DNA of 64,000 bases. Source: Haloarcula sp. CBA1129. GTDB taxonomy: Archaea > Halobacteriota > Halobacteria > Halobacteriales > Haloarculaceae. Under the pieces are notes generated by a model that worked only from the letters and a program-made list of their open reading frames with translations, was not told the DNA's origin and ran no database searches. Shown piece by piece: positions 10,692 through 14,333 of the stretch. The DNA lies in assembly GCF_008729015.1 (NCBI RefSeq), contig NZ_RKSM01000001.1, positions 558,001 through 622,000 on the forward strand. Reading direction: 5' to 3'. How positions within the stretch are numbered: position 1 is the stretch's first letter; each line of letters opens with the position of its first letter. A program made the translations under genes and the position numbers.

Positions 10692-12776
10692 ATGACTCTA
10701 GCTTTCGAACCGCTCGACGACCGACCCGGGCTCGCAGTCATCGACCAAATCGAGCGCCAGCGCTACCGGATACACACGCCGACGCCCATCGCGCTCAACG
10801 AGGGGGCGACCGACGTGTTTCAGTACCCAGTCGGGGACGCTGTCCGGATACGGACGCGCGCTATCGAACTCCCGACAGTCGTCATGGTGTACGTCCGTGA
10901 CGACGACGGGGCGATAGCCGCTGAGGTCGCACAGTTCGAGTCGGAGACGCTGCCGACAGATGACTACGTGCTCGACCCGCTAACGCAGATTAAGACGTAT
11001 ATGCGGGTCGAGAACACCGAGATTGAGGTCACCGTCGACTCGGACCGGACCCGAATCGAGTTCGACGCCCCGACGGACCTGCTCATCGGCGCTCGGTCCC
11101 AGCACGACCGGCCGGCGGCCACGGTCACGACGACCGAGCAACCGGCTGACGTGATGGCCGCAGTCGAGACCTTCGGCTCGGCGCTCAAGGCCTACGACCC
11201 CGAGCGCTCCTATCCGACGCTCCGTGGTCACCCGCCGGCGATTGAGATCGGGGACAGTTTAGAGATCCCTGCGGATATCGACAGTCCGGACACAGGTGTC
11301 ACGCTCGAACTCCCGCCCGACCTCGCGTCCGTCTTCGTCGCCGCACCGCTTTCGTACTACCTCGGTGCTTCGCTCGCTCCCGCAGCCACGCCGCGGCTCA
11401 CGACTGACACAGGATTTACGTACTCGCTCGACACTGCACGGGGCTTCGAGGCCGAGGTCGGACGCACGCTCAAACGCCTGTTCTTCCTCGATTGTGTCAC
11501 ACGCACTGAGGGGTTCCACCAGATCGACTTGCACGAGCGAGCAGCCATCGAGCCCTACGTCGATCTTGACTTCGAGTCGCTGTATCGGCAGTCGCTCGCG
11601 GAGCAGGTCGCCACCTATCTACAGGTCCCGTACGACGTTATCGAGGACCACATTCCGAAGTGGCGGCTGACGACGCACATCGACCCGGTGCCGACGAACG
11701 CAGAGCAACTGCCGTACGTCGTCGACGACCTCGCTATCGTCCAAACCCACCCACAACAACGGTTGAATCAGGCGACTGTTCCGGCAGAAGCCGAGGCCGA
11801 GTTCACTCGTGACGATGTCATCACCCGCGCTGCGACCTCCGACGCTGCTACCAACCCAGCCGACGTGGACTACGTCGAACCGCAGGCCGCGGACTCACTG
11901 GAACAAGCATGGATCGGGGACAGTATCCCGATCGGTGCGAGCAAGCTGACCAAAGCGGCGTTCGAACACCGACTTGACCGCGATAGGAACGCCGAAGACA
12001 TCACGATTCGCGTCGTCCAGAACGACGCTCGTATGGACGAGGAACGGCAGCTCGTCGACGAAGTGTACGGCAGCCGCGACGACCTGCCGTTCGATGTCAC
12101 GGTCCACGACGACCTGACGACGGCGGAGCTCAGAACCGTCCTCACGACCGACGCCGAGTTCTTCCACTACATCGGCCACACCGAACACGACGGCTTCGTC
12201 TGCTCCGACGGCAAGCTTGACGTGACAACAGTCGATTCGGTCGGCGTCGACACGTTCTTGCTGAACGCCTGTAACTCCTACAATCAGGGACTTGCGCTCG
12301 TCGAAAACGGCGCTATCGGCGGCATCGTCACGCTCAACGAAATCCTGAACGACGGTGCGGTTCGCATCGGTGAGTCGGTCGCCCGGCTGTTGAACTGTGG
12401 CTTCCCGCTTCGAGCGGCGCTAACTATTGCTCGGGGTGAGAGCATTCTGGGTGGGCAGTATATTGTCGTTGGTGATGGTGGTGTGACAGTTGCCCAAGCA
12501 GACGGCGGGATCCCAAACGTACTCGAAATAGAAACCGCTGAAACCGGCTACAACGTAGAAATGAATGTACATTCTACAGATAACAAAGGATTAGGAGCGA
12601 TTATGTTCCCTCATTTTAACGATTGTGAGGAGTATTATATAGTTCCGGGTTCAGTTGACAGATTCACTATCTCTAGAGACGAGCTAGTAGAGTTTCTACA
12701 TATGCAGCAAGTGCCTGTCAAAGCTAATGGAAGCCTCTACTGGAGCAATTCAATAGACTTGGATAACATTCACTAA
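10692..12776 (+). CDS. CHAT/caspase-like protein with divergent C-terminus
   Basis: A 694-residue protein of unknown function. Residues about 1-340 form an unrecognised N-terminal region. Residues about 420-605 look like a CHAT/caspase-type cysteine peptidase fold: strand, then FHYIGHTEHDGF with candidate catalytic His496, then FLLNACNSYNQG with candidate Cys527, then GIGGIVT-like strand and a final YIVVGDGGVTV segment like the closing GDP strand of CHAT and gingipain folds. The His-Cys spacing (31 residues) is short for the family. The last ~110 codons are AT-rich, unlike the rest. Function as a protease is inferred from motifs, not shown; it stands opposite a tiny membrane protein. Confidence 0.6.
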   Translation: MTLAFEPLDDRPGLAVIDQIERQRYRIHTPTPIALNEGATDVFQYPVGDAVRIRTRAIELPTVVMVYVRDDDGAIAAEVAQFESETLPTDDYVLDPLTQIKTYMRVENTEIEVTVDSDRTRIEFDAPTDLLIGARSQHDRPAATVTTTEQPADVMAAVETFGSALKAYDPERSYPTLRGHPPAIEIGDSLEIPADIDSPDTGVTLELPPDLASVFVAAPLSYYLGASLAPAATPRLTTDTGFTYSLDTARGFEAEVGRTLKRLFFLDCVTRTEGFHQIDLHERAAIEPYVDLDFESLYRQSLAEQVATYLQVPYDVIEDHIPKWRLTTHIDPVPTNAEQLPYVVDDLAIVQTHPQQRLNQATVPAEAEAEFTRDDVITRAATSDAATNPADVDYVEPQAADSLEQAWIGDSIPIGASKLTKAAFEHRLDRDRNAEDITIRVVQNDARMDEERQLVDEVYGSRDDLPFDVTVHDDLTTAELRTVLTTDAEFFHYIGHTEHDGFVCSDGKLDVTTVDSVGVDTFLLNACNSYNQGLALVENGAIGGIVTLNEILNDGAVRIGESVARLLNCGFPLRAALTIARGESILGGQYIVVGDGGVTVAQADGGIPNVLEIETAETGYNVEMNVHSTDNKGLGAIMFPHFNDCEEYYIVPGSVDRFTISRDELVEFLHMQQVPVKANGSLYWSNSIDLDNIH

Positions 12777-12845
12777 GCGTTCGAATTTCCTCGTAGCTCG
12801 TAAGTGCTGCAGAAAAGTTCTGAGTTGTCTAAGCTGGTTCTTCGT

Positions 12846-12977
12846 TTATGGCCCAATGTACGTGCTATTATTAGCTGCTGCAGTCCCCGCCTGAGATAGT
12901 AGCATCAGGAGGGTGAACAGTGCGCCGGCCATTTTCGGGTGCTCTGCGAGGTATTCGCGCATGGTAGTATCGGACAT
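12846..12977 (-). CDS. 43-residue signal-peptide-like small protein (DUF7503-type)
   Basis: A short frame reading MSDTTMREYLAEHPKMAG, then hydrophobic ALFTLLMLLSQAG, then TAAANNSTYIGP. It has a charged amphipathic start, a single hydrophobic helix (about residues 18-30), an AAA motif typical of a signal-peptidase site, and an eight-residue tail. I recognise the pattern as the haloarchaeal DUF7503 small-protein family, from memory. An AT-rich TATA-like element sits at the right distance upstream for a leaderless message. Its stop is 69 bases from the convergent CHAT-like gene. Function unknown. Confidence 0.7.
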   Translation of the reverse strand: MSDTTMREYLAEHPKMAGALFTLLMLLSQAGTAAANNSTYIGP

Positions 12978-13388
12978 GATACGATTTGGATGTTGGGCGA
13001 TAGATAATTAAATTTATTTGAAGAGTACCTACATATAATATATTGTATTAAGGATAGAATTAAAAGACAAATGCAGAAAACAATACAATCAAAGCCCAAA
13101 ACGTCTGTTTAGGGCCAAATCACACGTACAGATCGATCGGACAGAAGAACGGTCACAGCGATACCCCCCATCAGTAGCGTTTAGTAGACTGATATGCAAT
13201 TGATAGCCAAGATCAAGTATTGATGTCTGACTGGGAATCTCCGAATATTCACTCGAAGTATGTGCGTCCTACTGGCTCAGCTCGGCGGTTGGACGTAGAG
13301 GGGCCAATGTGTGCGACAATTGTGACCAGCGTGACTGGGTGGCTGGCTGATTTCAATCTCTGTGCTAGCAACAGTACCGGGAAAGAAG
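12978..13388. other. 411-base AT-rich intergenic region
   Basis: Bases about 13000-13110 are very AT-rich and hold the promoter of the small minus-strand gene. The remainder is mixed composition. An open frame of 58 codons starting at 13223 overlaps the next gene and is not convincing. No RNA gene was seen. Confidence 0.5.
13004..13016 (-). promoter_or_regulatory. TATA-box candidate for the 43-residue gene
   Basis: On the minus strand this reads TTTAATTAT within an AT-run, centred about 30 bases before the ATG at 12977, the spacing expected for a leaderless transcript. Confidence 0.5.
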
Positions 13389-14333
13389 ATGACCTCTGAG
13401 GAACAGTGGCAGCTCAGAGAGAAGGTAGTGGAGCTCTCCAGCGGGGCTATCAGCGGAAGCCGCCGCGCGGCAACGCAACACACGCCGCTGCTCCGGACCG
13501 AGTCAGCGGAGCGACGCGACGAAATGCGGACAGAGGTCCCGATTCCGCTGGCGAAAGTCGAGCAATCCCAGCAGTGTACCGTGTTGCACGTCGACGACGA
13601 CCCACAGGTGGGTGAACTGGTCGAGTTGTATCTCGAACGCATCAACGACGACTTCGACGTCGTGACGAAGACCAGCGCCGTCGCCGCACTTGACTTCCTC
13701 CGGACCGAGCAGGTCGACTGTATCGTCAGCGATTACGACATGCCAAACACCGATGGGCTGGAACTGCTGGAGCTCGTCCGCGAACAGTATCAGAACATCC
13801 CGTTCATCTTGTTCACTGGCAAGGGCAGCGAGGAGATCGCGAGCGAGGCAATTGCGTCGGGCGTTACCGACTATATGCAGAAGGGGGGCAAGTCAGACAC
13901 GTACGATGTCCTCGCCAACCGAATCGAGAACGCCGTCGAGCAACACCGCACTGAACAGCGGTTCTGGAACGCCCTCTCGTGGTATCAGCGGCTCGTCGAA
14001 CAGGAGCTCGCGGGCGTCTGTATCATTCAGGACGGGACGTTCGTCTACGTGAACCAGAAGCTGGCGGACATTTTCGGCTATGACCAGAGCGAACTCATCG
14101 ACGAATCACCGACCATCCTCACTCCAGCGGGCGACGAAAGCCGGTTCCCCGATTTACTCAGAACGGCAGAATCAGACGATCTTGAGACGTTCCATTCGGA
14201 ATTTGCGGGGCAACAGGCCGACGGTGAAACGCGGATAATCGAGGTGTCCGGCGGGGAAATCGAGTACGACGGCGAGCCAGCGTGGATCGGTGTGCTCCGA
14301 GACGCCGAAAGCCATCCCGATATTGGCGAGTGA
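13389..14333 (+). CDS. Response-regulator receiver plus PAS domain protein
   Basis: A 314-residue signalling protein. After about 60 low-homology residues comes a receiver domain (about 62-175): LHVDDDP acidic pocket, phospho-acceptor Asp in CIVSDYDMPNTDG, Thr in LFTGKG and Lys in YMQKGG. A PAS domain follows (about 205-310, VCIIQDGTFVYVNQKLADIFGYDQSEL). There is no histidine kinase or output domain, so it likely acts as a relay with an unlinked kinase. ATG 13389 follows GGGAAAG. A later ATG (13524, MRTEVPIPL) just before the receiver is an equally credible start. No partner lies alongside. Confidence 0.82.
   Translation: MTSEEQWQLREKVVELSSGAISGSRRAATQHTPLLRTESAERRDEMRTEVPIPLAKVEQSQQCTVLHVDDDPQVGELVELYLERINDDFDVVTKTSAVAALDFLRTEQVDCIVSDYDMPNTDGLELLELVREQYQNIPFILFTGKGSEEIASEAIASGVTDYMQKGGKSDTYDVLANRIENAVEQHRTEQRFWNALSWYQRLVEQELAGVCIIQDGTFVYVNQKLADIFGYDQSELIDESPTILTPAGDESRFPDLLRTAESDDLETFHSEFAGQQADGETRIIEVSGGEIEYDGEPAWIGVLRDAESHPDIGE

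Follow-up and report, generated by a model that had tools for sequence, protein, structure and literature searches.

A putative DUF7503 peptide precursor convergent with a CHAT-like protease in Haloarcula and across Halobacteria: a candidate peptide-protease module

A very small gene of Haloarcula sp. CBA1129 faces the gene of a large CHAT-like protease tail-to-tail, which raises the question of whether the two belong together and, if so, what so short a product might do for its neighbour. In order to answer it we examined the window, the whole stretch of 64,000 nucleotides that was analysed, together with the corresponding loci of other haloarchaeal genomes.

The small gene and its convergent protease

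The minus-strand ORF encodes MSDTTMREYLAEHPKMAGALFTLLMLLSQAGTAAANNSTYIGP, a protein of 43 aa (Table 1). It matches the Pfam family DUF7503 (PF24335) with an E-value of 6.5e-22 and 77.3 bits against a cut-off of 27; this is its sole Pfam match, the Pfam entry gives no function, and no second copy of the family passes the cut-off in this genome. A profile search located DUF7503 in 335 of 391 evenly drawn genomes of the class Halobacteria and, among 14 control genomes, in Haloferax volcanii alone. Judged by its sequence, the 43-codon ORF is real, far beyond chance, given the Pfam match and the presence of the family in those 335 genomes, and conservation at the protein level with variation of the codons suggests its translation. 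As the first-pass annotation had described, the protein has a single hydrophobic stretch and an AAA motif, with NNSTYIGP as its tail, and the 69 bases that the annotation gave between the small gene and the CHAT-like gene agree with the end of the latter at position 12776. The AT-rich upstream region was also borne out, with a GC of 0.283 over 120 nt against 0.632 for the window. The 100 nt upstream of DUF7503 in 182 relatives, whose ORF starts were set by a simple rule, have a mean GC of 0.349, compared with 0.627 for the loci, so the relatives share this AT-richness ahead of the gene. The gene that adjoins DUF7503 on this side (window 13362-14333) encodes a response regulator-PAS protein, kept in Haloarcula and rare outside it.

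Table 1. Features of the DUF7503-protease locus, in window coordinates
Feature	Position	Strand	Basis
DUF7503 peptide precursor, 43 codons and stop	12846..12977	-	ORF, Pfam profile, class-wide presence
Conserved leader, residues 1-35: n-region with HPK, hydrophobic helix, A-x-A signal-peptidase-like motif	12873..12977	-	column statistics
Hydrophobic stretch of the leader, residues 17-30	12888..12929	-	sequence
Variable tail NNSTYIGP, residues 36-43, predicted mature peptide, Gly-Pro end	12849..12872	-	column statistics
AT-rich region upstream of the DUF7503 ORF	12978..13097	-	GC 0.283
69-nt gap between the convergent DUF7503 and protease genes	12777..12845	.	ORF coordinates
CHAT-like (caspase-fold) protease gene, 694 aa, convergent partner	10692..12776	+	adjacency, alignment, predicted structure
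N-terminal beta domain of the protease, residues 1-137	10692..11102	+	modest beta-sandwich matches
Caspase-fold domain, about residues 394-602	11871..12497	+	predicted structure
Invariant His496, putative catalytic	12177..12179	+	42/42 rows
Invariant Cys527, putative catalytic	12270..12272	+	42/42 rows

The CHAT profile PF12770 gives no match to the window protease at E 1, and we therefore name it CHAT-like; nine of 42 relatives do match at E 0.1 or better, the best at 0.0048. Its predicted structure (pLDDT 88.2) was superposed by VIA-align on gingipain (Z 21.0, rmsd 2.8, 242 residues; protease 323-637), SAVED-CHAT (Z 18.8, rmsd 2.2, 169 residues; protease 432-602) and separase (Z 18.6, rmsd 3.5, 213 residues; protease 324-602). 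The model has the clan CD caspase-type fold and the alignment the conserved His and Cys, which we take to be a catalytic pair acting as in clan CD; peptidase activity is predicted. Ahead of this fold lies a predicted beta-rich N-terminus, whose best structural match reaches Z 8.4 over 124 residues (rmsd 3.5), with YidC at 7.4. Pfam places no TPR or HTH family in the protein at E 1, and since no signal peptide is seen by eye we take it to be cytosolic. For both proteins, PADLOC-DB profiles gave no family at E 1 and NCBIfam no match, and a PDB sequence search returned none. Fusions of the protease with other domains were considered as a clue and set aside, since the long frames examined owe their length to an open frame that continues upstream and looks of low complexity. 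GC falls to 0.427 over the final 300 nt of the protease gene (window 12477-12776), against about 0.6 elsewhere in the gene.

A pair kept as a unit across the class

The protease was found at E 1e-10 or better in 365 of the 391 genomes. All 335 genomes with DUF7503 have it, so that DUF7503 never occurs without the protease; a further 30 genomes have the protease and no DUF7503, and 26 lack both. The geometry of the pair, known for the matches listed (about 150 places per listing) among these 335 genomes, is convergent where examined, bar a few. In the 30 best loci of other genomes the protease always lies tail-to-tail with DUF7503. The same arrangement is seen in 59 of 60 larger loci from 51 genomes, fetched by the position of DUF7503 and chosen among the best-scoring listed places with a spread over genera; at the 60th the protease gene is cut by the contig end. 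Gaps in these larger loci are mostly small, with exceptions of 424 nt (L050) and 993 nt (L064). When the loci were found through the protease instead, as its 80 best matches, 76 carried a partner, 72 being DUF7503 by profile and four helix-less forms; among the remaining four, two run off the contig, one lies beside a run of N and one (L171) has no partner.

A harder test of the pairing was made on 80 genomes in which DUF7503 scores weakly or is present many times. By coordinates alone, 111 of 122 such places pair, and in six multi-copy genomes each of the 30 DUF7503 copies has its own protease. Six of the 11 remaining places (L237-L242) are convergent with a protease that is broken, cut, weaker or merely unlisted. 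One (L244) is at a contig end and one (L246) beside a small protease remnant; at L236 the protease is on the same strand 1.4 kb away, at L243 it is divergent, and at L245 none was found at the locus. Thus the first-pass claim that the small gene and the CHAT-like gene recur together holds far beyond close relatives. Of 201 distinct pairs, 38 have stop codons that overlap by 4 nt and another 30 have abutting stops; some genomes were sampled twice and pairs were made distinct by sequence, with L242, whose protease gene is broken, counted twice.

Plain synteny as the cause of this adjacency is ruled out by the flanks. At 129 loci outside Haloarcula and Halomicroarcula the other window neighbours tested recur at none or one, and the response regulator at eight. 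The pair is kept while its flanks hardly are outside the genus, and it therefore travels as a unit.

Proteases without a recognised partner also occur, and they number 52 among the 200 copies of the protease tree set. Later inspection of five of these (L187, L191, L195, L236, L243) revealed a diverged or differently placed partner; beside the deep copies L187, L191 and L195 it is a diverged hydrophobic convergent ORF, ending in Gly-Pro in two cases and in GGS in one. Given these three, the divergent second protease paralogue proved too simple as a clean unpaired control. No partner was recognised beside 17 copies (L175, L184-L186, L188-L190, L192-L194, L196-L202). Eight of them (L175, L184, L186, L188, L189, L194, L201, L202) face a convergent ORF with a hydrophobic stretch and no such tail, and L185 leaves 68 nt of room for a partner. 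L175 (G000:C1:1246502-1248448) is a second, divergent CHAT-like paralogue of Haloarcula sp. CBA1129 itself, with no recognisable small partner, and paralogues similar to it occur in other genomes. Five loci (L046, L050, L053, L054 and L260) contain a second protease copy that has no partner; it is oriented like the first and lies 300-900 nt past the DUF7503 start.

The other neighbours of the pair were clustered at 123 paired loci (proteins of at least 90 aa). The commonest cluster, present in 44 loci, is DUF7504 (PF24336) in the four members scanned, and 39 of its 45 proteins lie upstream of the protease on the same strand at a median distance of 58 nt; DUF7504 directly precedes the protease at L053 (4125-4877), L040 (9177-9953) and L173 (3864-4910). 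One DUF7504 copy also holds a HalOD1 domain. The next cluster occurs in 20 loci, at 16 of them on the DUF7503 side, and its two scanned members are HalX response regulators; each remaining cluster is found in at most 15 of the 123 loci. These recurrent neighbours look like signal-transduction genes, which makes us lean towards regulation. The protease is present on 25 plasmid records, all of haloarchaeal genera; phage records gave no copy, and viral contigs searched with either alignment gave no match.

A conserved leader, a variable tail and forms without a helix

The anatomy of the precursor was counted on the 185 partners detected by profile. The other 16 partners of the 201 pairs were left out, having been picked partly by their Gly-Pro end, and at least one of them (L203, beside a broken protease gene) may be due to chance. 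The leader has an invariant Pro followed by Arg or Lys (184/184 for both columns), a hydrophobic helix and Q-A-G. At the junction with the tail, all 184 sequences have Ala or Gly at position -1 and all 183 have one of Ala, Val, Ser, Thr and Gly at position -3, while position -2 is looser and also admits Met, Leu and Ile; this is the pattern of signal peptidase I. The tail is 8 or 9 residues long in 148 of 155 partners, its columns are variable (2.4-3.3 bits each) up to the closing Gly-Pro, and the last nine residues are uncharged in 154 of 185. The Gly-Pro end is found in 173 of the 185, a count in which detection may lean towards such ends since our own DUF7503 profile (A2) was built from rows all ending in Gly-Pro; 12 partners without this end were still detected, and L277 and L280 came to light later. 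Among all six-frame ORFs of 25-130 aa of the same loci, true partners included, the frequency of this end is 1.6% (292/18152). Every Gly codon and every Pro codon is in use at the terminal positions. Some non-Gly-Pro tails resemble the motif (L146, L156, L165, L172, L277, L280 and L236; e.g. NGGTIS and NGGAIR), and those placed in the tree (L146, L156, L165, L172) belong to no single clade.

The leader has a pN/pS of 0.337 and the tail one of 0.792, over 2706 non-independent pairs. Within Haloarcula one leader of 35 residues precedes the different tails NNSTYIGP, NNNIYIGP and ANSNTYFGP, and two DUF7503 copies of one genome carry different tails.

Among the 391 genomes there are six with a strong protease and no DUF7503, and these belong without exception to the genus of Haloplanus ruber. 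The place of DUF7503 is taken in all six by an ORF whose stop overlaps that of the protease by 4 nt and which has no hydrophobic helix and 4-13 tandem tails; a further Haloplanus contig (L112) has two tandem copies. Altogether, the tandem-repeat precursors (L124/L176 of Haloplanus ruber, L112 and L177-L181) hold 2-13 copies of a 9-residue core. In Haloplanus ruber, 13 units that all differ in their DNA encode one and the same peptide sequence of 12 residues, from which it follows that selection keeps the peptide. An Asp stands just before 47 of 48 Haloplanus core units, which would be compatible with a caspase-like cut. A Halococcus form of 40-41 residues likewise has no clear helix and ends in CTYSGP. 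In the protease tree the helix-less Haloplanus and Halococcus groups each join helix-bearing relatives with support 1.0, so that the most parsimonious account is two losses of the helix with retention of the tail. Thus the tail, not the helix, appears from these comparisons to be the functional part of the precursor. More diverged partners, still ending in Gly-Pro, stand beside other protease copies (L182, L183, L251-L253, L262). The release of a short peptide, which the first-pass annotation had inferred, gains from the strict small-x-small motif, the near-fixed tail length and the tandem tails of Haloplanus.

Possible roles of the tail and comparison with known systems

The steps of a possible mechanism are inferred: the precursor would be cut and exported, the tail would come back into the cytosol and bind the protease, and an output would follow. 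In most species a Sec-type leader would carry the tail across the membrane and signal peptidase would cut the precursor at A-x-A. The resulting peptide of 8-9 residues, here NNSTYIGP, would be recognised by the cytosolic CHAT-like protease encoded alongside. Most plausibly the tail would act as a cognate ligand that switches the protease, with the logic of a pheromone or of self-recognition; a role as substrate or brake of the protease is less plausible. No export signal is visible in the helix-less forms, which means that secretion is not general unless another route exists; these forms also favour a meeting of tail and protease in the cytosol, for which secretion would need re-import, as in RRNPP systems. 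The 12 of 185 ends without Gly-Pro and the many partnerless proteases count against a peptide ligand. Covariation between tail and protease gave a partial r of at most 0.096 in windows and 0.16 in single columns. On balance we modestly favour a view of DUF7503 as precursor to a short peptide that Sec exports in most species and that serves the cognate protease as a ligand.

The alternatives that keep the protein product differ in what the tail does to the protease. Securin blocks the active site of separase as a pseudosubstrate, and in the same manner a tail inside the cell or at the membrane could block the protease, which would be freed by loss or titration of the peptide. The caspase/separase-type fold agrees with such a brake, the cytosol would be the simplest place of action for helix-less forms, several protease molecules would be titrated by one set of tandem tails, and in multi-copy genomes each copy has its own protease; the signal-peptidase pattern and the variable tail are however left unexplained, partnerless proteases exist, and we regard a brake as unlikely. 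A cut of the precursor by the protease itself is rather improbable. Its caspase fold and the Asp preceding nearly every Haloplanus core, after which a cut could release the cores, speak for it, as does a caspase-like activity of Haloferax whose gene is unnamed in the passages concerned (PMC3615174), but the profile-detected single-copy forms have Ala or Gly instead of Asp at that place, and their tails are mostly uncharged.

A membrane effector, the other role offered in the first-pass annotation, could be a pore cut loose by the protease like the targets of protease-gasdermin pairs. The helix is indeed conserved in most members and the protease adjoins the small gene. Nevertheless, the Haloplanus repeats and the Halococcus forms occupy the same place without a clear helix, and the loss of the helix with the tail kept, in two lineages that group with helix-bearing relatives, disfavours this idea; we reject it as the main role and consider it highly improbable. 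Even less credence is due to a function as RNA, antisense or terminator for the protease transcript, with the peptide incidental. Convergent genes with overlapping or abutting stops would suit it, but the protein is conserved through synonymous change in the leader and in the 13 Haloplanus ruber units, all Gly and Pro codons are used at the end, and gaps reach 993 nt with one divergent case. Equally little can be said for a RiPP-like natural product with the protease as its maturation enzyme: conserved leader, variable core and multi-core precursors recall such peptides, but no modifying enzyme is evident in the neighbour clusters scanned in Pfam (part of the clusters near the 123 pairs), and the commonest neighbour after the protease is DUF7504.

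Control of the protease by the peptide, as in the ligand reading that we prefer, would make the pair an archaeal peptide-protease switch with a logic comparable to bacterial pheromone systems, and archaeal cell-cell communication could be tested with synthetic 8-9-mers. A gene could then also be proposed for the caspase-like activity described in H. volcanii, where passages of the report state that archaeal genomes are without clear homologues (PMC3615174); the CHAT-like protease is a candidate for that activity. More tentatively, the peptides may be class-wide haloarchaeal pheromones of 8-9 residues with a Gly-Pro end, made from signal-peptide or tandem-repeat precursors and each read by its own caspase-like protease; this wider proposal is possible but doubtful, and if true it would give Archaea a first system in which peptides serve signalling or kin recognition and cell fate. 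The density signal reported for H. volcanii survives autoclaving and proteinase K, and in the passages concerned its authors consider it a small molecule (PMC12240190); we do not claim its identity with a DUF7503 peptide.

The 43-aa ORF is a member of Pfam DUF7503, and to that entry the present analysis adds its pairing with the protease, the tail with its Gly-Pro end, and the forms with repeats or without a helix. Literature searches, with preprints and most subscription journals outside their reach, found nothing on DUF7503 or on a CHAT domain with H. volcanii. RRNPP systems are peptide pheromone-receptor pairs of Gram-positive bacteria in which the peptide is re-imported. They likewise have a small Sec-leader precursor beside a cytosolic partner, a predicted C-terminal mature peptide and several pairs in some genomes. 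Their anatomy and adjacency fit the DUF7503 pair, for which secretion and binding are predicted. In contrast to the TPR/HTH regulators of RRNPP, the partner here is a caspase-fold protease, and the pair is archaeal, convergent and has repeat precursors. CHAT protease modules with a linked target include Craspase (Csx29-Csx30), SAVED-CHAT cascades and protease-gasdermin pairs. The haloarchaeal protease is similarly tied by its genetics to a partner and matches the fold of SAVED-CHAT and Craspase, whereas DUF7503 has about 43 aa with a peptide tail, is near class-wide and has no PADLOC match (E 1). As for the bacterial gasdermin-protease pair, the small protein does not qualify as a gasdermin, DUF7503 being all that it matches in Pfam. 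Separase and securin share with our pair a related protease fold and a small dedicated partner, but DUF7503 mostly carries a membrane or export leader. By its parts and spread, we know of no described equivalent of the DUF7503-protease pair; by logic, it can be considered a variant of the peptide-receptor and protease-partner pairs.
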